From NCBI RefSeq assembly GCF_016758195.1, contig NZ_QYAC01000005.1, forward strand, positions 248,001-312,000: 64,000 nt of DNA, written 5' to 3'. The first letter of the stretch is position 1; the number at the start of each line of letters is the position of its first letter. Below are positions 45,859 through 63,395 of the stretch, in pieces. Origin of the DNA: Leucobacter chromiireducens subsp. solipictus (GTDB taxonomy: Bacteria; Actinomycetota; Actinomycetes; Actinomycetales; Microbacteriaceae). Both the position numbers and the translations under genes were made by a program. The notes beneath the pieces are model-generated. The model saw only the letters and a list, made by a program, of their open reading frames with translations, had not been told where the DNA came from and ran no database searches.

Positions 45859-46596
45859 CTAGCTCTCAGAGAAGTGGCGTTCGATCGGCCGCAGATCACC
45901 CTGCGCTCGCCACCAGCTCACCGCTTCCGCCAGCGTTCCGAGGTTATCCGGTACCCAGTCTGTACCGGTGAACAACTCACCCTCTGCGTAGTGTGCGGCG
46001 AGCACCTCAGCAAGGGCGGGATCATGCCCGGCGCGCTCGATCCCCACGGCGTTCACCCCGGCCAGGCGTGGGGGCGTCCCATAGACCTTCGCGAACGGCG
46101 GCACGTCGCGGGTCACGGGAGTGCCCATGCCCACCATCGCGCCGTGCGCGATCACGCGGCGCTGGTGCACCACAGCGTTCATTCCGATGTTGACGCGATC
46201 ACCGATCACGCAGTGGCCGCCGATCGACACGCCCGCGGAAACCGTGGTGTCTGCCCCGAGCAGGACATCGTGTGCCAGGTACGCGCGGTTCAGGACCCAG
46301 CTGCGCGGGCCGACGGTGGTCTCTCGGTAGGTGCCCTGGTGGATCACGGCTCCTTCCCGGATCACGGCACCGGCCCCAATGCGGACGCCCGCGTGGTCCA
46401 GATCGCCGGCCCAGGCCGCGTTCTGGCGCAGGCTCGACATTTCCGGTGGCGCGCCGATCTGGGCACCCGGTCCGATCCACGCCCCGGCCTCGATCACGCA
46501 GGGACCCAGAATCACCGCGCCGGGGCCGATCGTCACATCCGCGCCAAGTGTGACGCCTTCGCCGATAAACGCGTGCGAACTGATCGATGCGGGCAT
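45859..46596 (-). CDS. LpxA-like left-handed beta-helix N/O-acyltransferase
   Basis: Hexapeptide-repeat acyltransferase of 245 residues. Repeats such as IGEGVTLGADVTIGPGAVI build the beta-helix (~8-175). The resemblance to LpxA is specific: AYLAHDVLLGADTTVSAGV with His109 in the place of the LpxA catalytic His, GMNAVVHQRRVIAHGAMVGMG, and DVPPFAKVYGTPPRLAGVNAVG. The C-terminal helical part (~195-245) is shorter than in LpxA. LpxA makes lipid A in diderms; an actinobacterium has no LPS, so this protein probably acylates an amino-sugar nucleotide for a wall glycan. An LpxD-like enzyme, a DegT aminotransferase and a dehydrogenase lie in the same region. AGAGGAG precedes ATG 46596. Confidence 0.85.
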   Translation of the reverse strand: MPASISSHAFIGEGVTLGADVTIGPGAVILGPCVIEAGAWIGPGAQIGAPPEMSSLRQNAAWAGDLDHAGVRIGAGAVIREGAVIHQGTYRETTVGPRSWVLNRAYLAHDVLLGADTTVSAGVSIGGHCVIGDRVNIGMNAVVHQRRVIAHGAMVGMGTPVTRDVPPFAKVYGTPPRLAGVNAVGIERAGHDPALAEVLAAHYAEGELFTGTDWVPDNLGTLAEAVSWWRAQGDLRPIERHFSES

Positions 46597-46662
46597 GCTG
46601 CTCCTCTGTACGGGGTCTGACTCGATGCTAGCGCGCTCACGCGGAAATGCCGGGGAGCGGAG

Positions 46663-48651
46663 TTACTCCGCGCACCCCGTGATCCGGTAGAGCGCGGCGT
46701 CGCCCTCGCGGTCCACTTCGGTGAGGAGTGGCGAGCGGTCGAGATGCTTGAGCTGATCGAACTGCGGCCACACCTTCGCCGCGTTCTCGAACACGTAGTC
46801 CGTGCCAAAGTCGAGCACGTATTCGACGCCGAGTTCCGCGGAGGCGGCGCACGCGGCCGCCGGATCCGAGGTCAGCTTCGTCACGAGTGTGTAGGCCCGG
46901 GGGTCATACGTGCCGTTGGTATGCGGGAACAGGACGGGGCGATCCGCGATGGCGTAGCCCAGCGAGCCGCCGTTCAGCGGACTGTTCGCGATGGTCTCGC
47001 CCTCCGGTACGTCCTCCCCGAGTCGCTCGAGGAGCGTTCGCTCGTCATCGTCGAGCAGGATCGCGTCGTGCGTGTCGTAGCCATCGCGCAGCGACTGCAT
47101 GGCCGAGAACGTTCCGGCCTGTCCAGCGGCGAGGAGGAACAGCACTGCGAAGGTCGTGAGCATGCGATGCGCGAGCCGCGGACGGGCGGAGCCCATGCTC
47201 GCGAAGCGGCGCAGTCCCGGGCGGAGCATCGCCCACGCGGCAGACGCGCCGAGCACGGCGAGCGGGAGCGCACCGAACGGCACGAGGGAGGCGAGGCGCC
47301 GGGGGTCGTTGTACCAGGGGCCAACGATCGCGGTGCGCCAGTCGTTGGAGGGGAAGCCGTCAGACACCCAGTAGAGGAAGGCGAGCGCCGCCGCGGAGCC
47401 CAGGAGCCAGCGCACAGTGCGTGAGCGCCACGCGAGCAGCGCGCCGAGCAGGACGATGAGTGCCACGGTCCAGGCGTGCCCGGCGAGGTGCGGCGTCCCG
47501 CCGATCAGTTGGAGCGCGGCGCTGCGCGGCCCGTAGAACCCCTGCCAGGCGTTGTCGTAGGTCTGTCCCAGGATCCATGCGGCCGGGATCGCGGCCGCGA
47601 GAACGAGGAGACCGAGCACCGCGCCGACCCGCCGCAGTGCGAGGGGCGTCGGCGGCAGCGCCCGGGCACCGTCGGGCCCGGGAACCGTGCCGCCCCGGAG
47701 GCCCCGCCACACAACGAACAGCACGGGGATCGCGCCCCAGGCCAGCACCGCGTGGATGATGTTGGGGTGCGCGAGCGCCGCAGCGCCGAGCGCGCCGACG
47801 AAGAGCAGCCACCGGGTCCCGCGAGCGAGCGGGATCGCGCGACGTGCGGGCCCAAGGTTCAACAGTTGCAGGCCCGCGACGAGCAGGTAGGGCAGCAGCG
47901 CGAGCGCGAAGAGGTTCGGGTAGATCACGCCGTAGCCGGCGAGGAACAGCGGGAAGTTAGGGAACGCGGCCGCGAGTGCGCCGGAGATCACCATCACCCG
48001 GGTGCTCGGGCCGGCGATCGCGCGGCCCAGCGCCACCGCGCCAACCGGCCAGATCACCGCAGAGGTGACAAACAGCGCGGCGTTGGTGGCGAGCGGCACC
48101 GACGCGCCACTCAACTGCACAATCAGCGCAACGAAACCGTGCCACAGCGCCGGGTAGAACCCGGGTGTTCCGGGGGTGGTGAGTTCCATCGTGAACGGCG
48201 ACGCGGATCCGGAATCGAGGATGTAGCGCACCGTGTTGAGGTGGAAGTTCGCGTCGAACGTTTGCGAGATCGCCCCGGGCGTGCGGAGCCCCGCGGCGAG
48301 CGAGATCGCGATGACGGCGCCACCGATTGCGGCCGCGGCCAGGCCGAGCCAGAGTTCGCCGCGCTGAGTCCGGCCTGCCCGGGGGCCGGCTGGTGCGCCG
48401 ATCCAGCGCCGGAGCAGCCGGAGCACCACGGCAAGGAGCAGCGCGAGCGCGAGCGCCGGGAGCAGCGACCAGCGCACCCCCGCGATCGAGGCGACCACGC
48501 TGCTGACGGCGATCACGGCGAACGCCGCGGGCACGGCGACAAGCGGGACCGCCATGCCGCGGAGGCGAAGTGCCCAGGCGGAAGGTACGCCCAGCGCCAC
48601 GATGATCAGGAGCCCCGCGAGCACGGGGGCGGCAAAGGCGATCCAGGCCAT
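46663..48651 (-). CDS. Polytopic membrane protein, DUF6541/GT-C-like
   Basis: Membrane protein of 662 residues with about 14 hydrophobic segments over the first ~500 residues and a soluble C-terminal part (~530-662) ending in Cys-Ala-Glu. The large extracytoplasmic loops and IAISLAAGLRTPGAIS..FDANFHLNTVRYIL after span 4 are typical of the DUF6541 family, membrane glycosyltransferase-like proteins of actinobacteria. Enzymatic activity is not established. Its ATG shares one base with the stop of the DUF2304 gene, forming an operon GT2 - DUF2304 - DUF6541, a set often found together in glycan loci. Confidence 0.75.
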   Translation of the reverse strand: MAWIAFAAPVLAGLLIIVALGVPSAWALRLRGMAVPLVAVPAAFAVIAVSSVVASIAGVRWSLLPALALALLLAVVLRLLRRWIGAPAGPRAGRTQRGELWLGLAAAAIGGAVIAISLAAGLRTPGAISQTFDANFHLNTVRYILDSGSASPFTMELTTPGTPGFYPALWHGFVALIVQLSGASVPLATNAALFVTSAVIWPVGAVALGRAIAGPSTRVMVISGALAAAFPNFPLFLAGYGVIYPNLFALALLPYLLVAGLQLLNLGPARRAIPLARGTRWLLFVGALGAAALAHPNIIHAVLAWGAIPVLFVVWRGLRGGTVPGPDGARALPPTPLALRRVGAVLGLLVLAAAIPAAWILGQTYDNAWQGFYGPRSAALQLIGGTPHLAGHAWTVALIVLLGALLAWRSRTVRWLLGSAAALAFLYWVSDGFPSNDWRTAIVGPWYNDPRRLASLVPFGALPLAVLGASAAWAMLRPGLRRFASMGSARPRLAHRMLTTFAVLFLLAAGQAGTFSAMQSLRDGYDTHDAILLDDDERTLLERLGEDVPEGETIANSPLNGGSLGYAIADRPVLFPHTNGTYDPRAYTLVTKLTSDPAAACAASAELGVEYVLDFGTDYVFENAAKVWPQFDQLKHLDRSPLLTEVDREGDAALYRITGCAE

Positions 48652-49034
48652 CACGGTGCGGGGGTCTCCTCGGCGCTCGGGCGGTGCGGGTCGTCGTGCG
48701 CCTCGGTGATCCGGGCCTCCATGAGGGCGACCGCACGCGCGAGCTCCGAGACGCGGGCGTCACTGCGCGCCTTCGCGCGCACCGTCGCCGTCGCGAAGAT
48801 CAGCATAGCCACGATGAACAGATACAGCAGGAGGTCGGTGCCGCGCCCGATCCCAAAAAAGTTCGCCACTGTGGTGAGCGCGCCAGGGAAGAGGATCGCC
48901 ACGACCGCGGCGATCACAAACAGGATCGCGAAGATCCGCTTCAGAGCGAGCGAGCGTTCGCCGGGCAGGAACCGGACCGCGAGTGTCGCGGCCACGATCA
49001 CCGCGGCGATGAGCAGGAACTGAAAGAGCGTCAT
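48651..49034 (-). CDS. DUF2304 small membrane protein
   Basis: Protein of 127 residues with three hydrophobic segments (~4-22, 33-52, 65-85) and a charged, coiled-coil-like tail (VRAKARSDARVSELARAVALMEARI; core R-V-S-E-L-A-R-A-V). This is the DUF2304 pattern. Such proteins accompany dolichyl-phosphate-mannose-synthase-like GT2 enzymes and may anchor them at the membrane or help flip the lipid-linked sugar. The GT2 gene lies 13 bases upstream in the same direction. Confidence 0.85.
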   Translation of the reverse strand: MTLFQFLLIAAVIVAATLAVRFLPGERSLALKRIFAILFVIAAVVAILFPGALTTVANFFGIGRGTDLLLYLFIVAMLIFATATVRAKARSDARVSELARAVALMEARITEAHDDPHRPSAEETPAP

Positions 49035-49047
49035 ATTTTGGGGATCC

Positions 49048-49743
49048 CTACCGGATGATCAGGTCCACGAGGATGTTCACGGAGTTCAGCAGGGACTGGC
49101 CCTTTGCCTTCGAGTACTCCGAGTAGATCACCTCTACGGGGTGTTCCGCGTACGGCAGGCCGGTGCGGCCCAGCTGCACCACGATCTCCGTTCCGTGGGC
49201 CATGCGGTCCTGGCGGAGCTTGATCTGCCGGAGCGCATCCGCACGGATGACCCGCAGGCCGTTGTGCGCATCGGTGAGCTTGGTCCGGGTCGTGACGTTG
49301 GTCACCGCCACCGCGGTCTTGAGCACGACCTTCTTCAGGAAACCCGGGTTGGTTCGGTCGTCGAGAAAGCGGGAGCCGAACACGATCGCGAGGTCCTCCG
49401 CGCGGGCCCGGCGCAGCATGGCCGCGGCGTCCTCGACCCGGTGCTGGCCGTCTGCGTCGAAGGTGACCACGAACTCGGCACCGCGCTCGAGCGCGTATTC
49501 GAAGCCGGTCTGGAGTGCCGCACCCTGCCCCAAGTTGATGGGGTGCGTGACGACGCGGGCACCCGCCTGGCGTGCGATCTCCCCGGAACCGTCCCGCGAA
49601 CCGTCGTCGATACAGACGATGTGGGGGAACTGAGCCAGGAGGTCGCGGATCACTCCGGCGATCACGGTCGCCTCGTTATAGAGCGGGATCACGACCCAGG
49701 TGTCGGCAGCGGAGACGGCTGCTGCCGCGGATTCGGAGGTCAT
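49048..49743 (-). CDS. GT2 glycosyltransferase, DPM1/dolichyl-phosphate-sugar synthase-like
   Basis: Cytoplasmic GT2 enzyme of 231 residues. WVVIPLYNEATVIAGVI (~19-35), CIDDGSRDGSGEIAR, NLGQGAALQTGFEYAL and TFDADGQHRVED (~104-115, metal-binding DADG) are those of polyprenyl-phosphate hexose synthases, as is the late GLRVIRADALRQIKL. It probably charges a polyprenyl phosphate with a sugar for use outside the membrane by the DUF6541/GT-C-like protein encoded two genes on. The start ATG overlaps no other gene; CAGAAT six bases before it is a weak leaderless-type hexamer. Confidence 0.88.
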   Translation of the reverse strand: MTSESAAAAVSAADTWVVIPLYNEATVIAGVIRDLLAQFPHIVCIDDGSRDGSGEIARQAGARVVTHPINLGQGAALQTGFEYALERGAEFVVTFDADGQHRVEDAAAMLRRARAEDLAIVFGSRFLDDRTNPGFLKKVVLKTAVAVTNVTTRTKLTDAHNGLRVIRADALRQIKLRQDRMAHGTEIVVQLGRTGLPYAEHPVEVIYSEYSKAKGQSLLNSVNILVDLIIR

Positions 49744-49801
49744 ACAGGTATTCTGACAGATGAATGTTGGGCATACCCGTGCCCACGGAAGGTGTTCCCG
49801 T

Positions 49802-50914
49802 ATGTCAGCAGAGTTCATTCCCCCGGCCAAGCCGATCATCGGCGACGACGAGCGCGCGGCGGTCGACCGCGTGCTGCGCTCCGGCATGATCGCGCAGGGC
49901 CCCGAGGTCGCCGCGTTCGAGTCCGAGTTCGCTGAACACTTCGTGAACGGGCGCGCCACGGTCGCAGTGAACTCGGGGACGAGCGGCCAGCACCTCGGGC
50001 TGCTGGCCGCCGGCGTCGGGGCGGGCGACGAGGTCATCGTCCCGTCCTTCACCTTCGCCGCGACGGGGAACTCGGTCGCGCTGACCGGGGCGACGCCGGT
50101 GTTCGCGGATATCGATCCGCAGACGTTCACGCTCGACCCGGCCTCGGTCCGCGCGGCGATCACCTCGAAGACCAAGGGCATCATGCCGGTGCACCTGTAC
50201 GGGCACCCGTACCTGGTCGACCAGATCAACGCCATCGCCGAGGAACACGGCCTCGCGATCTACGAGGACGCCGCGCAGGCACACGGGGCCTCCTGGAACG
50301 GCCGCCCCGTGGGTACCCTGGGCGACTTCGCGATGTTCAGCCTCTACCCGACGAAGAACATGACCTCGGGCGAGGGTGGCATGGTGACCTGCGCCACGGA
50401 GGACATCGCGCGCAACGTGCGCCTGCTCCGCAACCAGGGCATGGAGACCCAGTACGCGAACGAGGTCATCGGCTACAACGCGCGCATGACGGACGTGCAC
50501 GCCGCGATCGGTCGCGTGCAGCTCACCAAGGTTGACGCGTGGACCGCGCAGCGCCAGGCCAACGCGGCAGCGCTGACGGCGGGGCTCGCGGGTGTCGCCG
50601 GCGTCACCACCCCGTTTGTCGCACCGGAGGCCGTTCACGTGTACCACCAGTACACGATCCGCGTGGACGCGGCGGAACGCGATCGCCTGCGCGACGCGCT
50701 GAAGGCCGAGCACAATGTGGGATCCGGCGTCTACTACCCGATCCCGAACCACCGGCTGCCCTCGCTCGCGCCCTTTGCTCCGGGCCTCGAGCTGCCCGAG
50801 ACCGAGAAGGCCGCGTCCGAGGTGCTCTCGCTTCCCGTGCACCCGTCGCTGAGCGCGGGGGATCTGGACCGCATTATCGCCGGCGTCACCGCCGTGCTGC
50901 GGGCGGGAGCGTAG
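49802..50914 (+). CDS. DegT/DnrJ/EryC1/StrS sugar aminotransferase
   Basis: PLP-dependent aminotransferase of 370 residues that converts a keto-sugar nucleotide to an amino sugar. FIPPAKPIIGDDERAAVDRVL (core PPAKPxIG) opens the fold, VNSGTSGQHLGLLAAGVGAGDEVI binds the cofactor phosphate, EDAAQAHGA precedes the loop, and Lys185 in YPTKNMTSGEGG should hold PLP. GYNARMTDVHAAIGRVQL is the family's substrate region. Possible roles are those of WbpE or GnnB, which aminate a 3-keto-sugar produced by a Gfo/Idh/MocA dehydrogenase; such a dehydrogenase is encoded at 62.4-63.4 kb. GGAAGG precedes ATG 49802; an ATG 42 bases earlier is the alternative. Confidence 0.88.
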   Translation: MSAEFIPPAKPIIGDDERAAVDRVLRSGMIAQGPEVAAFESEFAEHFVNGRATVAVNSGTSGQHLGLLAAGVGAGDEVIVPSFTFAATGNSVALTGATPVFADIDPQTFTLDPASVRAAITSKTKGIMPVHLYGHPYLVDQINAIAEEHGLAIYEDAAQAHGASWNGRPVGTLGDFAMFSLYPTKNMTSGEGGMVTCATEDIARNVRLLRNQGMETQYANEVIGYNARMTDVHAAIGRVQLTKVDAWTAQRQANAAALTAGLAGVAGVTTPFVAPEAVHVYHQYTIRVDAAERDRLRDALKAEHNVGSGVYYPIPNHRLPSLAPFAPGLELPETEKAASEVLSLPVHPSLSAGDLDRIIAGVTAVLRAGA

Positions 50915-50916
50915 GC

Positions 50917-50933
50917 TCGGGCACCGCCCGAGA
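50917..50933 (+). terminator. Short hairpin after aminotransferase gene
   Basis: CTCGGGC-ACC-GCCCGAG, a perfect seven-base stem three bases after the stop. No T run; it may only weakly separate the aminotransferase from the ABC gene 21 bases further on. Confidence 0.4.
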
Positions 50934-50953
50934 GCGCGGGGCCTCACGGCACT

Positions 50954-52792
50954 ATGAAAGAAATCTGGTCAGTTCTCCGACAGCTCCTGCCGCTCCTCCC
51001 GAAGGGGGCGCAGCGCTACTTCGTGGGATACATGGTCGCGACCAGCCTCATCACCTCGCTGGATGCGATCGGGATGGCGCTGCTCGCAATCGTGATCGGC
51101 CCCGCGCTCACCGGCAGCTCGATCACGTTGCCCGTGATCGGTACGGTGCCGCCGGAATCGGCACCCTTGTTTGTGCTCATCGCGTTGCTGCTCATGATCC
51201 TGAAGTCCGTGCTCAACGTGATGCTGCAGTGGTTTGCTACGCGGCGCTTTGCGAAGTACGAGCTGGAGATCGGTGATCGGCTGTTCAGGGCCTACATCAA
51301 CTCCAGCTGGGAAGAACGCGCGAAGCGCTCGGTCGCCGAGATTACGCGAATCGCCGATGCCGGGATCGCGAACACGATGGCGGGCTTCGTGCTGCCGATT
51401 ATGCGGCTTCCGAGCTCCTTCTTCACCTTTGTGCTCGTGCTCGGAGTGCTGGTCGTCGCTGATCCACTGACCTCGGCGATTGCGTTCGTGTACCTGTCCC
51501 TGGTCATGCTGCTCGTGCACTTTGTCGTGACGAAACGGGCGCTCGAGGCGGGCCAGGTCAATCTGTACTACGGGTACCGGGTTGCGAACCTCATGACGGA
51601 AATGATCGATGCGCTCAAGGAGCTGAGCCTGCGGAATCGGCTCGGTGAGGTGGCCGAACTGGTGACCGCGAACCGACGGCACAGCGTGCGCGCCCGCGCC
51701 AACGGGGCGTTCCTGGGGATCCTGCCTGGCTTCGCCTACGAAGCGGCACTGTTCGGGGGAGTGATCCTCATTGGTGGCGTCGCGGTCTGGCAGGGCGGAA
51801 TGGCGGCGGGGCTCAGCTCGGTAGCCCTGTTTGCCATGACGGGAATCCGTTTGATCCCCGCGCTCACGGGATTGCAGGGTGGGATCGTGCAAGCCACAGC
51901 GAGCACGCCTGGCGCACAGGACGTCGTCGGCGACATGATCGCGGCAGAGCGCGACATGAAGACCTCGCAGGCACCGGCGGATACCGCGGAGCTGGCCGAG
52001 CAGCCTGTCCAACTCAGTCTGCGGGACGTCCGCTTCCGCTACCCCACTGCCGAAGACGACGTGATTCGGGGGATGTCGCTGGAGATCCCCTTCGGGAGTT
52101 CCGTGGGAATCGTGGGCCCGTCGGGTGCGGGGAAGTCGACGCTCATTGACCTGCTGCTCGGCTTGAGCCAGCCGTCCGCGGGCGTGATCGAGATCGACGG
52201 CGAGCCGCTCCGCTCGGTCCTGCGGCAGTGGCGGGGGCGCGTGGGGTACGTGCCGCAGCGCGTTGCGCTCTTCGACGGGACAATCGCGCAGAATGTGGCC
52301 CTGACCTGGGGCGACGATCTGGATCCGGCGCGCGTTGAGCACGCGCTGCGCCGCGCGCAGCTGGGAACGCTGATTGACTCCCGTGCCGGCGGAATCCACG
52401 AGCGGATCGGCGAGCGCGGGGTGTCACTCTCCGGTGGACAGCAGCAGCGGCTCGGCATTGCCCGGGCGCTCTACACCGACCCGCTGGTATTGGTCCTCGA
52501 CGAGTCGACGTCGTCACTCGACACGAAGACCGAAGACGAGGTGACCAAGTCGATCCGGAGCCTGCAGGGCGAGGTGACGCTGATCTCCGTCGCGCACCGG
52601 CTCTCCACCATCAAGGACTACGACCGGGTGTGCTACCTCGATGACGGCGTCATTGTGGCGCAGGGAACGTTCGCTGAGGTGGCGCGCGCGCATCCCGCGT
52701 TTGGCGAGCAGGTGGCCCTCGCGGGCCTGGCTTCGGTGCTGGGGCCCGCCGACCAGGCCCCGCCGAACGACGCGAGCTCAGCGAGCCGCTAG
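50954..52792 (+). CDS. ABC transporter with fused membrane and ATPase domains, flippase-like (PglK/MsbA type)
   Basis: Half-transporter of 612 residues that would work as a homodimer. Six hydrophobic segments lie in ~20-310, followed by the nucleotide-binding domain (~350-590) with GPSGAGKSTL (~388-397), VSLSGGQQQRLGIARALY (~490-507) and VLVLDESTSSLD. Such exporters in glycan loci flip lipid-linked oligosaccharides (PglK, WlaB) or lipids. Its position between the sugar aminotransferase and GT2 genes favours a lipid-linked sugar, which would make it a second export route in addition to the TagGH-like pair. Confidence 0.85.
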   Translation: MKEIWSVLRQLLPLLPKGAQRYFVGYMVATSLITSLDAIGMALLAIVIGPALTGSSITLPVIGTVPPESAPLFVLIALLLMILKSVLNVMLQWFATRRFAKYELEIGDRLFRAYINSSWEERAKRSVAEITRIADAGIANTMAGFVLPIMRLPSSFFTFVLVLGVLVVADPLTSAIAFVYLSLVMLLVHFVVTKRALEAGQVNLYYGYRVANLMTEMIDALKELSLRNRLGEVAELVTANRRHSVRARANGAFLGILPGFAYEAALFGGVILIGGVAVWQGGMAAGLSSVALFAMTGIRLIPALTGLQGGIVQATASTPGAQDVVGDMIAAERDMKTSQAPADTAELAEQPVQLSLRDVRFRYPTAEDDVIRGMSLEIPFGSSVGIVGPSGAGKSTLIDLLLGLSQPSAGVIEIDGEPLRSVLRQWRGRVGYVPQRVALFDGTIAQNVALTWGDDLDPARVEHALRRAQLGTLIDSRAGGIHERIGERGVSLSGGQQQRLGIARALYTDPLVLVLDESTSSLDTKTEDEVTKSIRSLQGEVTLISVAHRLSTIKDYDRVCYLDDGVIVAQGTFAEVARAHPAFGEQVALAGLASVLGPADQAPPNDASSASR

Positions 52793-52795
52793 CGA

Positions 52796-53913: not shown

Positions 53914-53919
53914 GGGTCG

Positions 53920-55183: not shown

Positions 55184-56410
55184 CTAGGCCTGTCGCGTGA
55201 TCCAGTGATCTCGTAGCGCGGCGGCGCTCATCGCACCCGAGTGCACGGCTGCCACGTAGCCGGGCCCCGCGGCTGCGGCACGCCGAGCGGCTGCCGGATC
55301 TGCGATGAGGCCAGCCACCACATCGTGGAGCGTGTCCGGGGTGGCCTCAACGATGGGGAGTTCACGTCCGGTATCTCGAAGAATGCGCTCCCGCACGCTG
55401 GGGAGCACATGCCCCACGACGACCCGCCCAGACGCCATTGCTTCAGCCGCGGCAACCCCGTAGGAGCCGACCCGGAACTGGTCAAGCACGATATCCGCGC
55501 CGGCAAACACCGTGGGCATCTCCGAGGCCGGGGTGGCCGTGATGAGCTCGTAGTCGAGCGCACCCGCGGCGATCAGCGGTGCGAGCGCCGGCTCGATCCG
55601 GTCGCTGCCCTTCTGGAGTGGGTTGCTCGAGGCATGAATCACGCGGACCCGATCGCCCTCGAACGCGGGCCTCGTGGGGGCGAAGCGCGCGGTGTCCACG
55701 ACGACCGGGCACCAGATCGCCCAGGGGAGATCCGCGGCAAGATCGGGTGTGGAAATAAAGGTGGGGCGACGAAGCCGCTCGAGGAGCGCCAGGTTCGCCT
55801 GGGCATCGCGGCGGAGCACCGGCGTCCGGGGGTCTTCCGCGAAGGGAGACCATTCGGTGAGGCTCATGTGCCGGTCCGGGTCGCGCACGTCGGTGCCGTG
55901 ACCGAGGAACGCCACGGAGATTCCCGCGGCCTCGAGCGCGGCGACTTCCGCTTCGAGGTCGCGTCCCCACCGCTTTCCGAACATGGGGCGTTCGGCCTCG
56001 ACCAGCACGTGCGTGAACTTGCTGACGGACGTCCACTCGGCCTCCGCCCAGTCCGCCGAGGCGTTCACGGCCGCAATGGGCACGAGCGTATCGGCTGGGA
56101 AGGCGTAGCCACCGGGGAGATCGATCGCCATATTGCGGGCACCGATGCTCGGGTCCGAGCGTTCCAGCGCCCGCGCCCAGAGGTAGCCCTGCCCGGCGTA
56201 GTTGGTGGGGGCGATATACACGCGGATATCCGTGTCCGGGACGGCGGTGTGCGGTGCCTCACCGCCCGAGCCCATGAGCCGTGCACTGAGCCGACCCACC
56301 AGGCCGTCCGGGTTTCGGGCGGCGGACTCCATGAGGCGCTGCGCCCACTGGGGGAGCTTCGACCGGTGCGCCACCGCCCACCCGGCGAGGCGAGAGAAGA
56401 ACTCAGTCAT
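55184..56410 (-). CDS. Glycosyltransferase, paralogue A of three
   Basis: GT-B-type glycosyltransferase of 408 residues. The N-terminal ~65 residues are variable, followed by YIAPTNYAGQGYLWARALE (~72-90), HVLVEAERPMFG, FLGHGTDVRDPDRHMSL and, in the second lobe, RVRVIHASSNPLQKGSDRI and VLDQFRVGSYGVAAAEAMASG (~330-350), where the sugar nucleotide binds. The proteins encoded at 57.6-58.8 and 58.8-60.0 kb share all these motifs. Its ATG overlaps the stop of the GT4 gene by four bases. It is the last of four genes transcribed together. The donor sugar is unknown. Confidence 0.8.
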   Translation of the reverse strand: MTEFFSRLAGWAVAHRSKLPQWAQRLMESAARNPDGLVGRLSARLMGSGGEAPHTAVPDTDIRVYIAPTNYAGQGYLWARALERSDPSIGARNMAIDLPGGYAFPADTLVPIAAVNASADWAEAEWTSVSKFTHVLVEAERPMFGKRWGRDLEAEVAALEAAGISVAFLGHGTDVRDPDRHMSLTEWSPFAEDPRTPVLRRDAQANLALLERLRRPTFISTPDLAADLPWAIWCPVVVDTARFAPTRPAFEGDRVRVIHASSNPLQKGSDRIEPALAPLIAAGALDYELITATPASEMPTVFAGADIVLDQFRVGSYGVAAAEAMASGRVVVGHVLPSVRERILRDTGRELPIVEATPDTLHDVVAGLIADPAAARRAAAAGPGYVAAVHSGAMSAAALRDHWITRQA

Positions 56411-57618
56411 ACGGTGGTGCCTTTCTGGGGAGACCGCCCAGACCGGCCGGATCCTCCTCGGCGCCGGCCCGCGGAGCCGACCGCGGTGATGCGCGCGGCG
56501 ACCCGCTCGGCAACGGCGCGCATCGAGTGGTGCGTCGCCGTCCATTCGGCGACCCGCTGCCGCTCGGCGGGGGAGAGCGGCGCGTCCGCGGCATGCCGCA
56601 GCGCGTGCGCGATGGCCTCGGCGGAGTACTCCGCGACGTGGCCCACGGGCACCGTCTGCGCGGCCTCGGTGAGAAACGGTGCCGTGGGGCCGGGCCCTGC
56701 GAAGATCACCGGGCATCCCGCGGCGAGGGACGAGTAGGCCTTCGACGTGAAGGCGTACTCGTAGCCACCTCCGGGCTTCAGGGTCGCGAGGCTCGCGACG
56801 GCGCGCGACAACTGCGGGCTGAGCTCCGCCGCGGGCACCGGATCGGCGAACTCCACGCGCGCGCCGACCCCGAGCGACTCGGCGCGGGCCCGCATCGCCT
56901 CCTGCTCCGTGCCGTTCCCGATGAACCGCAGCCGATAGCCGGGGTGCGTGTCGGAAAACTGGGCGAAGGCGTCGATGAGGATGTCGGCACCGTGCAGCCC
57001 GGTGTAGGTGCCCGCGTAAATGAACAGCCGCTCCGTGGGAACCTCGCGATACCCGAACACTGAGGTGTCGGCCCCGAACCCGGTGACGTCCACCGGCGTG
57101 GTGACCCCCAGATCGCGGACGCGATCGACCACGCCCTGCGAGATCGTGACGAGTTCCGCGGCCCCGCGCATCGCGAAGCGTTCGATCCACCGCAGCACGC
57201 GCACCACGAGACCGGAGTCGGTTGCCTGACCCGCGGCATCCGACCAGATATCGGCCGCGTCATAGACATAGGGGATCCGGCGCAGCGCGCAGATGACGCG
57301 GACCACGGCACCCGTGGTGGGCGGCGGCTCGACAAACACGGCTGCGGGGCGGCGGGCGAACAGGAGGCGAACCGCGAGCGGAATATCGAAGCTCATGTAC
57401 TGCACGTAGCCGCGGACATACCCGTTCGCGTCCCGCAGCACCGGGAAGGTCGCGACGCGCTCCCCGCGCGAGGCCTCACCCTGCCCGGGCAGCGGCTTCG
57501 CGGTGAGAACCTCGACCTCGTGCCCGGCCGCCGTGAGGGCGTCCGAGACCGACCCGAGAAAAAACGATGCCGCGGACGGTTCGGGCCGGTAGATGCGAGT
57601 GGCGATGACAATACGCAT
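56407..57618 (-). CDS. GT4 family glycosyltransferase
   Basis: Glycosyltransferase of 403 residues, GT-B fold. MRIVIATRIYRPEPSAASF and GHEVEVLTAKPLPGQGE begin the acceptor lobe (WbuB-like), VYDAADIWSDAAGQA lies in the middle, RLFIYAGTYTGLHGADILIDAF starts the nucleotide lobe (~217), and YAFTSKAYSSLAAGCPVIFAG carries the late loop. The C-terminal ~25 residues are Gly/Arg-rich and probably disordered. It lies two bases after the paralogue B gene and overlaps paralogue A, so it is inserted in the middle of a paralogue cluster in a single operon. It may be an N-acetylamino-sugar transferase, by analogy with WbuB; this is uncertain. Confidence 0.85.
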   Translation of the reverse strand: MRIVIATRIYRPEPSAASFFLGSVSDALTAAGHEVEVLTAKPLPGQGEASRGERVATFPVLRDANGYVRGYVQYMSFDIPLAVRLLFARRPAAVFVEPPPTTGAVVRVICALRRIPYVYDAADIWSDAAGQATDSGLVVRVLRWIERFAMRGAAELVTISQGVVDRVRDLGVTTPVDVTGFGADTSVFGYREVPTERLFIYAGTYTGLHGADILIDAFAQFSDTHPGYRLRFIGNGTEQEAMRARAESLGVGARVEFADPVPAAELSPQLSRAVASLATLKPGGGYEYAFTSKAYSSLAAGCPVIFAGPGPTAPFLTEAAQTVPVGHVAEYSAEAIAHALRHAADAPLSPAERQRVAEWTATHHSMRAVAERVAARITAVGSAGRRRGGSGRSGRSPQKGTTV

Positions 57619-57620
57619 GG

Positions 57621-58793
57621 TTACGCGTCCAGGAAGTGCCGCATCAAGACATCCCGGGAGAAGGCACCGCTGTGGAGGCGACGCACAAACTCCGGCCCCT
57701 GCGCGGCGATCTCCCGGTAGTGGTCACGCCGCTCGGCGATATCGCGCAGGCGAGCCTCAACGGTGTCCGGGGTGGTTTCCGGGATCGGAAGCGGCATCCC
57801 CGCCTCCTTCTCGACCGCATCCCGCACCTGCTGACTCACATGTGCGAGCACGATCCGGCCCGACGCCATCGTCTCGCAGGCGGCGACGCCGTAGTCTGCG
57901 GCGCGGAACTGATCCAGAACAACGTCGGCGTCCGCAAACACCGCCGGCATCTGATCATTCGGGACGCCGCGGAGCTCAACGTAGTCGATGAGTTCTTCGT
58001 CGTGCAGCCGCTGCACGGTGGGCGCGATCAGCGTGGTTCCCTTGGGAATCGGATTCGTGGGGGCGTGCACGACCTTGAGGCGATCACGCACGAGCAGCGG
58101 CTCGGAGTTGCGCCACTTCTCGGGATCGATGATCACCCCGAGGAAATGGGAGTTCGGGAGATCGAGGAGCAGCCCGGCAGTCGAGACAAACGTGGGGACG
58201 TCGAGATCAGCGATGAGCTTGAGGTTCTTCTCGACGACCTTTTCCACGAGTTCGGGAGCCACCCATTCGTCGTTGTGAAAGTACGACCACTCGTGCAGGT
58301 CAGCATGCCGCGACGGGAGACGCACGTCGGTCCCATGCCCCACGATTGCGAGCTTGAGCCCCGCATCCTGGAGCTCGGCGGCCTGCCGGTACATATCGCC
58401 CGAGTACCGGCCGCCGAGGATCGGGAAGCACGCCTCAATGAGGACATGCGTGTAGTGCTCGGAGAGCGTGGTGAGCATCGATTTCTGCCAGGCGCGGGAG
58501 TGCTCGGCGGTGCGCCAGGTCACGGTGTAGTCCGCCGCGTAGCCGAGCGGATTGTTTGCCTCGTGGACATAGTTCCGGGCGGATACCCGGCCGGTCTCCT
58601 CGACGGCACGCGACCAGCGAAACCCCTGCCCGGCATAGTTCACGGGCCCCACGAGGAGGCGGATGGGGCGTGACGGATCGGGGAGCGGGGGCGCCGGAGG
58701 AACAACACCCCGGAGTCGATCGACACCGGAGGCAATGGCATCCTGCGCTGGCTTCGGAGCGAGATTCCAGAGTCGTTCAGCTGCTGGGTGCAC
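57621..58793 (-). CDS. Glycosyltransferase, paralogue B of three
   Basis: Relative of paralogues A and C, 390 residues. LVGPVNYAGQGFRWSRAVEE (~45-64), THVLIEACFPILGGRY, VGHGTDVRLPSRHADLHEW, RLKVVHAPTNPIPKG and VLDQFRAADYGVAACETMASG (~310-330) repeat the family motifs, while the N-terminal ~35 residues differ. Start chosen at GTG 58793, which overlaps the stop of paralogue C by 17 bases and has AAAGGA eight bases upstream; a start 37 codons earlier would overlap the previous gene by more than 120 bases. Confidence 0.78.
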   Translation of the reverse strand: MHPAAERLWNLAPKPAQDAIASGVDRLRGVVPPAPPLPDPSRPIRLLVGPVNYAGQGFRWSRAVEETGRVSARNYVHEANNPLGYAADYTVTWRTAEHSRAWQKSMLTTLSEHYTHVLIEACFPILGGRYSGDMYRQAAELQDAGLKLAIVGHGTDVRLPSRHADLHEWSYFHNDEWVAPELVEKVVEKNLKLIADLDVPTFVSTAGLLLDLPNSHFLGVIIDPEKWRNSEPLLVRDRLKVVHAPTNPIPKGTTLIAPTVQRLHDEELIDYVELRGVPNDQMPAVFADADVVLDQFRAADYGVAACETMASGRIVLAHVSQQVRDAVEKEAGMPLPIPETTPDTVEARLRDIAERRDHYREIAAQGPEFVRRLHSGAFSRDVLMRHFLDA

Positions 58794-60024
58794 TGACGGG
58801 GTCCTTTCGGTCGTCGGAAGACGTGTCGGGTGCCTGGAGCCAATGCTCGCGGAGTGCGCGGGCTGACATGCGGCCGTCGTGGACTGCTCGGACAAAGTCG
58901 ACACCGCGCGCGGAGTGCGCGGTCATGGACGGCAGCGCTGCGAGATCGCGGAGCACCTGTTCGAGGGTGTCGGGGGTGGCCTCGAGCACGGGAAGTTCGA
59001 GGCCGCTTGCCGCGAGCACCGCGTCTCGAACCTGTGCAGATACCTGCCCGATCGCGAGGCATCCGGCGGCCATGGCCTCGCACGCAGCGACCCCGTACGA
59101 CCCGGCACGGAACTGATCCAGCATGACGTCCGCTGCGGCGAACACTCCGGGCATGTCCGCGGAGGGGACACCCTGGATCAGCGTGAACTCGATCAGCCCT
59201 TCAGCCTGCAATCGCTCGAGCACCGGCATCACCATCGCGGTGCCCTTGTAGGCTGCCACCGAGGGGGCATGGACCACCCGCAACGGCGAGCCGGCCGCGC
59301 GTTGGCCGCGAGCCGGGGCCGCCCAGCGTTCGGGGTCCACCACGACCGGGCACCAGCGCGCGTGCGGCAGGTCGACCAAAAGGTCAGGCGTCGAGACGAA
59401 CGCGGGTCGACCGCTGTCAGTGACGAGCGCGATGTTGCGCGCTGCGAGTTGTTCGGCCCGGGGAAGGTAGACGGCCTCGTCGGAGTAGTACGAGAGCGGA
59501 TTTCCCGCGATGTGCCGGGACGGGAGGCGCGCGTCGGTGCCGTGCGCGAGGTACGCGACACTCACCCCCTGATCCTCGAGGGCTGCGGCCTGCGCCGTCA
59601 CCGAGCGGCCCATGAGCCTCCCGAACGGGGGTTCCTCGGCCTCGATGAGGACGTGAGTCGCGCTCGCCGCAGCGGCGAACTGCCGCTGCTGCCAGTCCGG
59701 GTCGTTGTGGTACGTGCCGACCGGAACGACGAGGTCCGCGTCGAAGGCAAAGCCTCCCGGCACCTCGATCGCCATGTTCCGGGCGGAGATCTGAGGATCC
59801 GCCGATTCAAGCGCGCGAGCCCAGGCGGTGCCCTGACCCGAATAGTTCACGGGGGCGATGAGGACGCGGGTGGCAGCGGCCCCGAACTCGGTCGCGGGGA
59901 TCGTGCCGTGCGGGGCAGGCGCCCCGAGCCGCCGCGCGGCGATCCGGCCGAGCGGGCTCATCGGGGCGTCGGCGAGCCGGTCGATCCCGCGGTTCACCCA
60001 CGCGGGCAGGCGATTGCGGTTCAC
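58777..60024 (-). CDS. Glycosyltransferase, paralogue C of three
   Basis: GT-B-type enzyme of 415 residues. LIAPVNYSGQGTAWARALES (~55-74), HVLIEAEEPPFGRLMG, YLAHGTDARLPSRHIAG, PLRVVHAPSVAAYKGTAMV and MLDQFRAGSYGVAACEAMAAG (~328-348) match paralogues A and B; over most of its length it is closest to A. It heads the four-gene operon C-B-GT4-A. Its GTG start has no ribosome binding site but overlaps the stop of a 12-codon reading frame that begins at a leaderless-type start, so translation may depend on coupling to that leader. Confidence 0.8.
   Translation of the reverse strand: MNRNRLPAWVNRGIDRLADAPMSPLGRIAARRLGAPAPHGTIPATEFGAAATRVLIAPVNYSGQGTAWARALESADPQISARNMAIEVPGGFAFDADLVVPVGTYHNDPDWQQRQFAAAASATHVLIEAEEPPFGRLMGRSVTAQAAALEDQGVSVAYLAHGTDARLPSRHIAGNPLSYYSDEAVYLPRAEQLAARNIALVTDSGRPAFVSTPDLLVDLPHARWCPVVVDPERWAAPARGQRAAGSPLRVVHAPSVAAYKGTAMVMPVLERLQAEGLIEFTLIQGVPSADMPGVFAAADVMLDQFRAGSYGVAACEAMAAGCLAIGQVSAQVRDAVLAASGLELPVLEATPDTLEQVLRDLAALPSMTAHSARGVDFVRAVHDGRMSARALREHWLQAPDTSSDDRKDPVSAPSS
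58802..58807 (-). promoter_or_regulatory. Ribosome binding site choosing the paralogue B start
   Basis: AAAGGA on the minus strand inside the end of paralogue C, eight bases before GTG 58793. Confidence 0.6.
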
Positions 60025-60059
60025 AGGGTGCGGGTTCCCGCGCGGTTCGGTGCTGCCAT
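60021..60059 (-). CDS. 12-codon upstream reading frame (MAAPNRAGTRTL)
   Basis: ATG GCA GCA ... CTG TGA on the minus strand. The ATG is seven bases after TAAGAT, and its TGA overlaps the GTG of paralogue C as GTGA. A ribosome that loads at the leaderless ATG would finish on top of the next start. This is a candidate leader peptide; no known attenuator peptide is recognised (no runs of one amino acid). Confidence 0.45.
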   Translation of the reverse strand: MAAPNRAGTRTL

Positions 60060-60066
60060 GCGTGCA

Positions 60067-60072
60067 ATCTTA
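60067..60072 (-). promoter_or_regulatory. Leaderless-type -10 box of the glycosyltransferase operon
   Basis: TAAGAT on the minus strand, seven bases before the leader ATG at 60059. Confidence 0.5.
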
Positions 60073-60199
60073 GCGCGGGGTGCCTGCGCGGCCCGGGTGT
60101 GCGCGTGGGGTGACGTCTCCCGTAGCATGGGGCACATTGTGTTCTCTTGTCAGACCCATTGCCGGCACGCGCTGGCCGCGACTTGAACGGCAGACCAGC

Positions 60200-60874
60200 A
60201 TGACCTCTTCCGCTACTGAAACGTACGACTACTCGCTGAAGTCCTACTCGGACACGCTGCGCGCCTATCGCGACGCCGGGTACGCGGTGACGGGATTCCA
60301 GGAGTATCTCGCAGCACCGCAGACGCAGCACCTGGTGCTGCGCCACGACATCGATAACACCATCGAGCAGGCAATGCGGGTGGCGCGCGTCGACGCCGAA
60401 GCTGGCTGCACCTCGACGTTCTTCCTCCGGGTGCACGCCCGCGGCTACAACCTCATGAGCCTGCAGTCGCTGCAGTTCATCCAGGAGATGGAGGGGCTCG
60501 GACACGAGGTCCAGTTGCACCTGGAAGGCGGGCTCTCGGACTGGCTCGGCGGCGACAACTGGGAGTGGGCCGAGCGCCAGCGCGCAGTATTCGAGGCCGC
60601 GGTCGGTCGGCCCCTCGGCGGCTTCAGCTCGCACGAGCCCGCGCGCATGGGCGGCATGGAATTTGCGAATGCGCTGCGCGAGAAGTGGAGCGACACCGTT
60701 GCGTACCACGCCTACGAGGAACGCTTCATGATGCCGCACATGAAGTACCTGAGCGACTCGAGCGGCCGCTGGCGCGAGGGCCACTTCGGCATGTGGGTCG
60801 GCAAGGAGCCCCTGATGCAGGTGCTCACGCACCCGTTCTGGTGGTTCGAGAAGGTCCCGGCCGAAAACTACTAG
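60200..60874 (+). CDS. Polysaccharide deacetylase-like protein
   Basis: Protein of 224 residues with a NodB-like pattern: LVLRHDIDNTIEQA (~45-58, Asp50 and Asp52 as possible catalytic and metal residues), STFFLRVHARGYN (~72-84) and GHEVQLHLEGG (~101-111, His102 and His107). SHEPARMGG (~140) may be a further active-site loop. The C-terminus ends HPFWWFEKVPAENY, a pattern I associate with deacetylase-like proteins of surface-glycan loci. It has no signal peptide, so it should act in the cytoplasm on a sugar nucleotide or lipid-linked precursor. It is divergent from the glycosyltransferase operon. The substrate is unknown; confidence in the fold is higher than in activity. Confidence 0.72.
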   Translation: MTSSATETYDYSLKSYSDTLRAYRDAGYAVTGFQEYLAAPQTQHLVLRHDIDNTIEQAMRVARVDAEAGCTSTFFLRVHARGYNLMSLQSLQFIQEMEGLGHEVQLHLEGGLSDWLGGDNWEWAERQRAVFEAAVGRPLGGFSSHEPARMGGMEFANALREKWSDTVAYHAYEERFMMPHMKYLSDSSGRWREGHFGMWVGKEPLMQVLTHPFWWFEKVPAENY

Positions 60875-61022
60875 TCACGGTCTTCCCGAGCTGAGGGCCG
60901 AGGCGTCCACCCGCGCGCACTCAGTCTGCTTGGTTCGCGCAGAACGGCCGTGAAGCTGGTGCCCGGGGTACAGGGCGTTGGGTCCGAGGCTTGGATCGTG
61001 CCGCGTCCTCAGCGCTGCGGCG

Positions 61023-61074
61023 TTGCGCAGGGGCAGCGTACTGCAGCATTGCGCGGGGGCACCGTACTGCGGCG
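61023..61074 (+). repeat. Two tandem copies of a 26-base repeat, plus partial third
   Basis: Copies at 61023-61048 and 61049-61074 share TTGCGC, GGGGCA, CGTACTGC and GC at the same spacing and differ at about five positions. A third copy begins TCGCGCGGC and then diverges. Confidence 0.7.
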
Positions 61075-61114
61075 TCGCGCGGCGACCCCTGTGCCGGGTG
61101 GACACGCATACCGC

Positions 61115-61175
61115 GGAGATTCACGGGCCGGGTGCCGGATCCGGCTCGAAATCTCCTGCGCGTTCGTGAATCTCC
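61115..61175. repeat. 11-base inverted repeat with 39-base loop
   Basis: GGAGATTCACG (61115-61125) and CGTGAATCTCC (61165-61175) are perfect complements. The loop is GC-rich and can pair further (GCCGGATCCGGC-like core). Confidence 0.65.
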
Positions 61176-61425
61176 GAGTCGTTGGTGAATGGGTGCGCCC
61201 GACCTCACCCCGTGGCACGGGTACTCGCCGGATCCGCGGAGCCTGGGTGCGGGAAACGCTCGCGAAACACCCCTCACCCGATTCACCCCCGACACCCATT
61301 CGCGGACCTCGGACGCCGCCCGATGGCGCAGCCCATCCGCGCGTGAGACACCCGCATCGTGCGAGGCACCCGGAACGGTGCGAGACGCCCGAGGGCGCTC
61401 ACGAGACGCCCGGGGCGGGCGTTCG

Positions 61426-62328
61426 CTACTTCTTGTTGTCGCCCAGGCGCTTCGCCGGGTTGCCGACGCGCACCTCGTTCTCGGGGATCGACTTCAGCGC
61501 CACGGCCCCGATCCCGAGCAGAGAGTCCTTGCCGAGCGTGAGGCCCTGGATCACGGAAGCGTTCGGCCCGATCCAGACGTCGTCTTCGATCACCACACTG
61601 CCGGAGATTTCGGCGCACGCCGTGATGATCACGTTGCGCCCGATCCGGCAGTTGTGCGCCACGTGGACGTGGTCGTCGATCTTCGTGTAGTCGCCGACCA
61701 CGGTCGGCGCGATCGTGCCCGAGCAGACCGTGGTGAAGTTGCCGACCTCGCTGTGCGCGCCGAGCCGCACCGAACCGATGTGGGGCACGTGGAAGTTGTT
61801 CCCGTTGGCGTCCTTCTCGATCCCGAAACCCTCTTCGCCCACCACGGCCTGGCTCTTCACGAGCGCGTGCGGGCCGACGACGACGTTGCGGCCGATCACG
61901 ACGTGATCGCGGATCTCCGCGTGCGCCTCGACCATCGCCCCTTCCCGGATCACGGTGAACTCGCCGATGTGCGCGGTCTCGTGCACGATCGCGGTCTCGT
62001 GCACGATCGCGGTTGCGGCGATGCCGGGGGCAACGCGGGGGGCGAAGTGCCGGGCCACGGTCTGGCCAAATGCGGCGCGGGGGTTCTCCACGGGGATGAT
62101 CGCCCCGCGCCCCGGGGCCGGCAGCTCCACGCCGGTCGGCGCGAACACGACCGCGCCGACCTCAAGTGCCGCGGTCAGCCCGGCGGCGTAGCGCTCGACG
62201 TCGCCCACGAAGGTGAGCGTGTCGGCATTCGCGTCGAGCAGGGGGGCGGGAACCGAGATGCGGAGGTCTGCGCCGAGCAGTTCCGCGGTGAACTCGTCGG
62301 CCAGGGTGCGTGCGGTGAGGTCCGTCAT
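61426..62328 (-). CDS. LpxD-like beta-helix N-acyltransferase
   Basis: Hexapeptide acyltransferase of 300 residues. An N-terminal non-helix domain (~1-100) resembles the uridine-binding domain of LpxD. The beta-helix (~105-290) contains GEEGFGIEKD..HIGSVRLGAHSEVGNFTTV and then IDDHVHVAHNCRIGRNVIITA, where His225 in AHN matches the LpxD catalytic His. Family knowledge: LpxD transfers an acyl chain to the 2-amino group of a UDP-glucosamine. Here it is in a monoderm, so a wall or capsule amino sugar is the likely acceptor. TAGGGT is seven bases before ATG 62328. It is divergent from the Gfo/Idh/MocA gene, which may supply the sugar. Confidence 0.87.
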   Translation of the reverse strand: MTDLTARTLADEFTAELLGADLRISVPAPLLDANADTLTFVGDVERYAAGLTAALEVGAVVFAPTGVELPAPGRGAIIPVENPRAAFGQTVARHFAPRVAPGIAATAIVHETAIVHETAHIGEFTVIREGAMVEAHAEIRDHVVIGRNVVVGPHALVKSQAVVGEEGFGIEKDANGNNFHVPHIGSVRLGAHSEVGNFTTVCSGTIAPTVVGDYTKIDDHVHVAHNCRIGRNVIITACAEISGSVVIEDDVWIGPNASVIQGLTLGKDSLLGIGAVALKSIPENEVRVGNPAKRLGDNKK

Positions 62329-62335
62329 GCCCACC

Positions 62336-62341
62336 ACCCTA
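62336..62341 (-). promoter_or_regulatory. Leaderless-type -10 box before LpxD-like gene
   Basis: TAGGGT on the minus strand followed by seven bases (GGTGGGC) and ATG. TTGCTT about 19 bases further up is a possible weak -35. Confidence 0.55.
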
Positions 62342-62438
62342 GCCTCGCGCAGTGGGGGATAAGCAAGCACCCCGTACACTGGGACAGGTTTGTCTCGAAG
62401 CCCCGGGACCAAATCGCTCGCGACGTTGGAGGAGAATC

Positions 62439-63395
62439 ATGGCCAATCCGAATATCGTGCTCTTCGGTGCCGGAACGATGGGGCGCAACCACGCCCGGAT
62501 CATTTCGTCCTCCTCACGCGCCAATCTGGTCGGCATCGTTGACCCGTTCGAGCAGAACGGCCGCGCCGCCACGGACCTCTACGGGGGCGAATGGTACCCC
62601 GAGGCCGAGGCCGCGCTGAAGCACGCCGACGCCGTGGTGGTTGCCGCTTCCACCGAGTACCACTACGACATCGCGCGCCAGGTGCTCGACGCGGGCCTGC
62701 CTGTACTGATCGAGAAGCCGATCTGCCCGTCGCTGGAGCAGACCGAGGAGATCCTCGCGACGGCCGAGCAGCGCGGTGTTCCCGTGCAGTGCGGTTTCCT
62801 GGAACGCTATAACGCTGGCGTGATCGCCGCGCAGTCGCTGATCGAGGAGCCCGTCTACGTGCGCGCCGAGCGGCACTCGCCGTACTGGGCCCGTATCAAG
62901 ACCGGTGTGGCGTGGGACATGCTCGTGCACGACGCCGACCTCGTGTCGCGGCTTTTCGGTTCGGCCTCGCCGACCTCGGTGAGCGCCGAGCTGGGCTTCT
63001 TCCATCCCGAGTCCGTGGAGGGCGCGGAAGACGTGATCGACATGACGCTGCGTTTCCCCGGGAACGGGATCGCCTCGGCCTCGGCCAGCAGGGTCGGGCA
63101 GCGCAAGGTGCGCAAGCTCACCATCCAGTCGCTGAACTCCATGGTCGAGGTGGACCTGCTGCTGCGCAGCGTGACGAAGTACCGGCACGCGAACATCGAG
63201 AGCACCGACGGTCGCGCAGGGTTCAAGCAGATGACCGAGATGGAGGTGCCCGAGGTCTCCGGCCTCGAGCCGCTCGCCGCGCAGTTCGAGCACTTCGTCG
63301 ACCTCGTGGGGGGTCGGGTCGACCAGGATGAGGAACGCCGCAGCATCCTCCCCGCGCACCGCATCATCGCCGCCGCCCTCGCCGCAAAGGCGTAA
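62439..63395 (+). CDS. Gfo/Idh/MocA-family sugar dehydrogenase
   Basis: NAD(P)-dependent oxidoreductase of 318 residues. The Rossmann fold starts NIVLFGAGTMGRNHARI (~5-21). VVAASTEYHYDIARQVLDAG and VLIEKPICPS (~89-98, conserved Lys93) are diagnostic, and WDMLVHDADLVSRLFG lies in the catalytic region. Relatives WbpB and GnnA oxidise UDP-GlcNAc(A) at C3 ahead of a DegT aminotransferase. With the aminotransferase at 49.8 kb and the LpxA- and LpxD-like enzymes it could make an N-acylated 3-amino sugar. Strong GGAGGAG at 62428-62434 sets the start. A role in inositol or another sugar route cannot be excluded. Confidence 0.88.
   Translation: MANPNIVLFGAGTMGRNHARIISSSSRANLVGIVDPFEQNGRAATDLYGGEWYPEAEAALKHADAVVVAASTEYHYDIARQVLDAGLPVLIEKPICPSLEQTEEILATAEQRGVPVQCGFLERYNAGVIAAQSLIEEPVYVRAERHSPYWARIKTGVAWDMLVHDADLVSRLFGSASPTSVSAELGFFHPESVEGAEDVIDMTLRFPGNGIASASASRVGQRKVRKLTIQSLNSMVEVDLLLRSVTKYRHANIESTDGRAGFKQMTEMEVPEVSGLEPLAAQFEHFVDLVGGRVDQDEERRSILPAHRIIAAALAAKA

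Follow-up and report, generated by a model that had tools for sequence, protein, structure and literature searches.

An LpxA-like acyltransferase gene and its aminotransferase and dehydrogenase partners in Leucobacter chromiireducens subsp. solipictus: a predicted route to a diacetamido sugar

The stretch of DNA described here (the window, 64,000 nucleotides) covers positions 248,001 to 312,000 of contig NZ_QYAC01000005.1 of Leucobacter chromiireducens subsp. solipictus (assembly GCF_016758195.1). Between its positions 45859 and 63395 it carries genes for an LpxA-like acyltransferase (P0001), an LpxD-like acyltransferase (P0002), a DegT/DnrJ/EryC1/StrS aminotransferase (P0003) and a Gfo/Idh/MocA dehydrogenase (P0004). 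A preliminary description, made from the sequence alone, had treated the four genes as one cluster that may place acyl groups, possibly longer than acetyl, on a 3-amino sugar of a wall glycan. Here we report that P0001, P0003 and one Gfo/Idh/MocA dehydrogenase form one module, and that the LpxD-like P0002 is a separate, accessory gene. To judge from its sequence, P0001 is probably the 3-N-acetyltransferase of UDP-GlcNAc3N, the 3-amine derived from UDP-N-acetylglucosamine (UDP-GlcNAc), and the product in the window's genome is probably the neutral UDP-2,3-diacetamido-2,3-dideoxyglucose (UDP-GlcNAc3NAc).

Genes of the locus

All four genes were recovered as first described, with the same coordinates and motifs. 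His109 of P0001 lies in AHD and is followed by DVPPF (from residue 164) and RLAGVN (from residue 177), and His225 of P0002 lies in AHN. The Pfam scores of P0003 (DegT, 405.6 bits) and P0004 (Gfo, 85.4 bits) are far above chance, and chance resemblance was ruled out for the four genes by their match scores. P0001 scores 141.9 and 134.5 bits with the NCBIfam LpxA models, under the cut-offs of 226 and 231, and passes the Pfam model Acetyltransf_11 (LpxA domain 2) with 25.2 against 24.5 bits over only 40 of 82 positions. P0002 reaches 174.9 bits (cut-off 207) and 164.4 bits (cut-off 242.5) with the NCBIfam LpxD models and 23.3 bits with the Pfam LpxD domain, below its cut-off of 30.8. Because both proteins miss the family cut-offs, a true LpxA and a true LpxD were rejected, and 'LpxA-like' and 'LpxD-like' are the right labels. 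That the host is free of lipopolysaccharide agrees with the search for LpxC of the lipid A pathway (PF03331), which gave no match in the window's genome and was positive in 4 of 14 control genomes.

The coordinates of the module genes and their neighbors are summarized in Table 1. P0003 and the adjacent glycosyltransferase of family 2 (GT2) are divergent with 58 bp between their starts, and P0002 and P0004 are likewise divergent, 110 bp apart. The GT2 misses the equivalog cut-off of its top model, PpgS, and is called PpgS-like here.

Table 1. Features of the window discussed in the text
Feature	Position	Strand	Remarks
P0001, LpxA-like (Pcryo_0615-type) acyltransferase, 245 amino acids	45859-46596	-	candidate UDP-GlcNAc3N 3-N-acetyltransferase
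DUF6541 membrane protein	46663-48654	-	PF20176, 491 bits; putative outer-face transferase
DUF2304 small protein	48651-49034	-	PF10066; 4-bp overlap with DUF6541
GT2	49048-49743	-	top NCBIfam model polyprenyl-phospho-GalNAc synthase PpgS, 263.2 bits, cut-off 370
P0003, DegT/DnrJ/EryC1/StrS aminotransferase	49802-50914	+	probable 3-aminotransferase, position deduced from context
ATP-binding cassette (ABC) exporter with ATPase domain	50954-52792	+	directly after P0003; candidate flippase
Deac60, HDID motif	60200-60874	+	accompanies every LpxD-like gene; motif-based guess of a deacetylase role
P0002, LpxD-like acyltransferase, 300 amino acids from ATG	61426-62328	-	accessory gene
P0004, Gfo/Idh/MocA dehydrogenase	62439-63395	+	EKP at 92, HDAD at 164; probable UDP-GlcNAc 3-dehydrogenase

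Distribution of the module genes

The search set consisted of the window's genome (G000), 36 other genomes of the same genus and 23 genomes from other families of the order. Homologues of P0001 (60-86% identity) are present in 29 of the 36 genomes and homologues of P0003 (81-95% identity) in the same 29, whereas full LpxA-like and DegT genes are both missing from the other seven. From six of these seven, all three genes are missing at the thresholds applied. The seventh, G010, is a 450-contig draft with a 72-residue LpxA-like piece and a dehydrogenase of a second type, GfoA; no DegT was found in it, and it was counted as being without LpxA-like and DegT genes. For the dehydrogenases, E-value limits of 1e-20 (P0004-type) and 1e-40 (GfoA, with the copy of G013 as query) were applied. 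Exactly one type occurs in each of the 29 genomes, namely the P0004-type in nine (84-98% identity) and GfoA in 20 (70-92% identity to the G013 copy); the two types never occur together in a genome. In all 20 GfoA genomes this gene and the LpxA-like gene share a strand and are separated by 23-85 bp, and each of the 20 stretches also holds matches to the PpgS-like GT2 and to DUF2304. Fisher values, computed with phylogeny ignored, are 1.2e-7 for the LpxA-like gene with DegT and 1.0e-7 for the mutual exclusion of the dehydrogenase types.

Outside the Leucobacter-like group the same genes stand together. A total of 48 LpxA-like loci were collected, of which L132 and L134 (27-32% identity, no module genes) were left out. 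Among the 46 retained, 33 are Leucobacter-like (L087-L117, L122, L126; one Canibacter and two metagenome-assembled genomes (MAGs) of other names included), and 13 belong to Lentzea, Saccharothrix, Schumannella, Cellulosimicrobium and MAGs. The neighborhoods covered were those of L074-L086, L103-L134 and five other loci. In 13 of the 13 outside loci a P0004-type dehydrogenase (54-62% identity) lies at most 1.4 kb from the LpxA-like gene, and in 12 of them a DegT gene (43-47%) is placed between the two. The pairing of a Gfo-type dehydrogenase with a DegT aminotransferase, as in GnnA/GnnB, is thus seen in all 29 P0003-bearing genomes and, with an adjacent DegT, in 12 of the 13 distant loci. Co-occurrence within the genus and adjacency in the 13 outside loci are the reasons for which we regard Gfo, DegT and LpxA-like genes as belonging together. 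Homologues of P0001 in phage records (12 records, below 60% identity) were not used.

Seven loci of other families were picked from the 23 genomes for a DegT gene side by side with a Gfo gene or a hexapeptide gene beside DegT. All seven show a WbpD-type acyltransferase, a DegT (65-76% identity to P0003) and a GfoA-like dehydrogenase side by side; the label 'WbpD-type' is based on the top PDB match of one member, 3mqg (WlbB), to which member the others are 63-76% identical. The tested member scores 116.8 bits to 3mqg against 29 bits to 8e62, the structure that is the best match of P0001. Because similar DegT and GfoA-like proteins accompany WbpD-type enzymes in other families, the LpxA-like enzyme seems to stand in for the WbpD-type protein as the 3-N-acetyltransferase.

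The reactions of the dehydrogenase and the aminotransferase were assessed by family models and structures. UDP-GlcNAc 3-dehydrogenase is the top NCBIfam model for P0004, for GfoA and for the Lentzea dehydrogenase, each below the cut-off. Several observations weigh against the module and its proposed chemistry. About 16 kb separate P0004 from P0001 in the window, shared ancestry is not taken into account in the co-occurrence values, and of the six module-free genomes G002, G023 and G026 are incomplete (72-89%). The PDB matches of P0004 are weak, at most 78 bits, with inositol dehydrogenases next. In NCBIfam, P0003 scores best with two 4-aminotransferase models, ArnB (271 bits, cut-off 631) and PseC (256 bits, cut-off 423.5), and its PDB matches begin with 7b0d, 2oga and perosamine synthases, with WbpE chains from the sixth place on. 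With such matches, amination at C3 is deduced from context, namely from the Gfo and acyltransferase partners of P0003.

A second DegT gene of the window's genome (G000:C5:366912-368009; L074 9847-11013) is 74% identical to P0003 and has counterparts in four other genomes of the genus (73-75%); no Gfo or hexapeptide partner was found for it in its 20-kb stretch. The G+C content is 0.53-0.61 across positions 30000-46000 of the window and 0.66-0.73 on either side, the shift coinciding with the end of the LpxA-like gene. This low-G+C part encodes three proteins with CDP-glycerol glycerophosphotransferase domains, together with ABC exporter genes recognized by reading only. Three related proteins (55184-56404, 57621-58766 and 58777-60024) share NY.GQG and HGTD stretches and are apparent tandem paralogues; the one that was scanned gave weak glycosyltransferase matches only.

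Accessory genes, sugar and acyl group

The LpxD-like gene is found in seven of the 36 same-genus genomes, compared with 29 for LpxA-like and DegT, and in two of the seven it occurs without P0004. The four genes as a single unit were therefore rejected, as the LpxD-like gene is distributed apart from the other three. Its association with P0004 is weak (5 of 9 P0004-type genomes, 2 of 20 others; p 0.016, phylogeny not considered). Its constant companion is Deac60, which stands beside it in 7 of 7 genomes and is present in eight of the 36, once without the LpxD-like gene. The two genes are convergent, with a gap of 551 bp (60875-61425) in the window, whereas in seven relatives the two matches are about 20-115 bp apart.

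It is possible, if doubtful, that P0002 and Deac60 are an optional tailoring pair that would deacetylate and re-acylate an amino sugar belonging to this same glycan. The steady adjacency speaks for such a pair, as does the conservation of HDID, GHEVQLH and THP in 7 of 7 aligned Deac60 sequences, motifs from which the putative deacetylase role is guessed. Against it, Deac60 gave no Pfam match at E-values up to 1, no NCBIfam match and no credible PDB profile match; its model is poor (predicted local distance difference test, pLDDT, 45.7), no Foldseek match was obtained at E-values up to 0.001, and the top value of 0.0036 is meaningless at such a pLDDT. P0002 shares the N-terminal LpxD-like domain and the AHN catalytic motif with E. 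coli LpxD, but the C-terminal extension is absent and a 24-column gap falls in the helix domain. LpxA-like, Deac60 and LpxD-like genes occur together in eight genomes (that of the window and seven others); six of the eight have them on a single contig in a span of about 30 kb, and G029 and G033 on separate contigs. Were Deac60 a deacetylase, these genes could be a monoderm parallel of the acylation, deacetylation and re-acylation series of LpxA, LpxC and LpxD, acting on a 2,3-diamino sugar that would reach the wall on polyprenyl phosphate, possibly with a group other than acetyl; we regard this as very unlikely.

A second alternative concerns the sugar itself. In a route of the WbpB/E/D type UDP-GlcNAc would be oxidized also at C6, and the product would be the uronate UDP-GlcNAc3NAcA, as in Pseudomonas and in a teichuronic acid of Streptomyces. 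Against this, the window's genome (99.81% complete) has two weak matches to the PF03721 6-dehydrogenase, none over the cut-off, and no match to the PF02350 2-epimerase, while 13 and 11 of 14 controls, respectively, were positive; the PF03721 and PF02350 pair of a WbpA/B/E/D/I set is accordingly not found there. These two negative results are the grounds for the neutral product. In a survey of the 29 module-bearing genomes, in which weak matches were listed in part and part of the candidates of larger genomes were scored, PF03721 over the cut-off is also absent from 5 (G004, G012, G027, G029, G032), among which G004, G027 and G032 consist of a single contig; G000, G004, G027 and G032 were fully scored. 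None of the 13 outside LpxA-like loci has a 6-dehydrogenase in its 13-21 kb stretch.

The uronate is favored by the remaining 24 of the 29 genomes, which carry PF03721 over the cut-off, in several of them near the cluster. A uronate may therefore be the more common product and may be formed in the species of these 24 genomes; this weighs against the neutral sugar, as does the possibility of a route without PF03721 or of a gene lost from the 11-contig assembly. A 6-dehydrogenase is further present in four of the seven stretches with the WbpD-type triad. Structure 8e62 is that of Pcryo_0615 from Psychrobacter cryohalolentis and is titled 'N-acetyltransferase required to produce Diacetamido-2,3-' sugar; its pathway is said, in the title of a reference, to make a glucuronic acid. 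The Streptomyces utr pathway (PMC13274773) points in the same direction. For the window's genome we consider the uronate unlikely and the neutral sugar the better reading. A nucleotide-sugar 6-dehydrogenase (L081 11040-12323, L083 3319-4602, L071 1743-3029) stands beside P0004 in G008 and G031; as none over the cut-off exists in the window's genome, a switch between neutral and uronate sugar is possible.

The group transferred by P0001 was judged from its relatives and residues. Pcryo_0615 is the best match by sequence (phmmer, 101 bits) and by profile (148.5 bits), followed by LpxA chains (103-133 bits), QdtC (61) and 3mqg (50). The AlphaFold model of P0001 (pLDDT 91.7) ends in three C-terminal helices, and with Foldseek 8e62 shows the highest identity (34%, TMt 0.86). 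In E. coli LpxA, H125 is catalytic and G173 is the hydrocarbon ruler, the exchange G173M shortening the acyl chain. All 29 aligned LpxA-like members keep H125, H144, H160, Q161 and N198, and all 29 have H122 replaced by Tyr, G173 by Met and H191 by Pro, so that the last three substrate residues of LpxA are not those of the P0001 family even though H125 is kept. In the pairwise alignment with 8e62, this Tyr and the stretches HQR and GMG recur. By sequence an acetyl group is likelier than a long acyl group, because the ruler position is Met throughout, the solved structure nearest in sequence carries the title of an N-acetyltransferase, and WbpD-type enzymes occupy this place in other families. 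Two points weigh against acetyl: by Foldseek E-value, LpxA structures (ranks 1-25) precede 8e62 (from rank 26), and the C-terminal region of P0001 is absent from the 189-residue 8e62, so a different donor is possible. That the LpxA-like and LpxD-like enzymes put longer groups on a 3-amino sugar, as had been suggested, is highly improbable: P0001 does stand in the LpxA branch by profile, with the catalytic His and the C-terminal helices, but the three points just given for acetyl and the missing C-terminal extension of P0002 speak against it.

Predicted pathway and related systems

On the reading that we favor, with moderate confidence, the Gfo-DegT-LpxA-like route would lead to neutral UDP-GlcNAc3NAc, which would be passed via polyprenyl phosphate to a wall glycan. 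P0004 would oxidize UDP-GlcNAc at C3, P0003 would transaminate the 3-keto sugar to UDP-GlcNAc3N, and P0001 would N-acetylate the new 3-amine. The PpgS-like GT2 and DUF2304 beside the module suggest, by homology, a polyprenyl-phosphate sugar, and these two proteins could load the sugar onto polyprenyl phosphate. The sugar would then be flipped across the membrane, with the ABC exporter as candidate flippase, and DUF6541 might pass it to the wall glycan. What the sequences show is which genes are present, that each module-bearing genome has one of two dehydrogenase types, the homologies, the residues of the active site and the absence of the usual 6-dehydrogenase and 2-epimerase families noted above; we infer all reactions and their order, the amination position, the source of the acetyl group, and the steps on the lipid carrier and of transfer. 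The earlier idea of acylation on a 3-amino sugar thus survives in part: the genes support a route through 3-keto, 3-amino and 3-N-acyl sugars amid glycosyltransferase and export genes, and they do not support a single four-gene unit or an acyl group longer than acetyl.

Among known systems, Pcryo_0615 is closest to P0001, with an LpxA-type left-handed helix and the common stretches PPE, AYVAHD/AYLAHD, HQR, GMG and GIE(K/R)(S/A)G. It differs in its Gram-negative host, its shorter chain and its pathway, which leads to a glucuronic acid as far as the reference title tells, whereas the window's genome is without PF03721 over the cut-off. In the GnnA/GnnB and LpxA system a Gfo-type dehydrogenase, a DegT aminotransferase and an LpxA-type acyltransferase act on UDP-GlcNAc and its 3-amine, the same three enzyme families as in the window's module. 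That system serves lipid A, whereas in the window's genome LpxC and hence lipid A are lacking, the context is that of a wall glycan and a long acyl group is unlikely. GnnA/GnnB of Acidithiobacillus make the 2,3-diamino sugar GlcN3N (PMC3342949). For WbpB/WbpE/WbpD, the pathway to UDP-GlcNAc3NAcA in P. aeruginosa (PMC10622841), and for Streptomyces utr, the three reaction types are the same as in the module, but a WbpD-type enzyme stands where the window has the LpxA-like one, and PF03721 over the cut-off is absent from the window's genome. For utr, a WbpB/E/D-like route to an actinobacterial wall sugar has been published as a prediction with the glycan structure solved (PMC13274773).

GnnA/GnnB in lipid A (PMC3342949) and an LpxA-type N-acetyltransferase, from 8e62, are already known. 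Within the searches made, three things are new here: the actinobacterial LpxA-like family, the replacement of one acyltransferase or dehydrogenase type by another, and a module genome that lacks the 6-dehydrogenase. A literature search returned no title on the LpxA-like/DegT/Gfo module in Leucobacter, no paper joining Leucobacter and LpxA, none that names Pcryo_0615 and none that mentions 8E62 together with an acyltransferase.

The analysis provides a testable assignment for a relative of LpxA in bacteria that lack lipid A. In actinobacteria, to annotate such genes as lipid A enzymes would mislead. In the diamino-sugar route the place of the 3-acyltransferase would be held by either a WbpD-type or an LpxA-type enzyme, and that of the dehydrogenase by either of two types. 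An uncommon neutral 2,3-diacetamido sugar is predicted in the wall of some Leucobacter.

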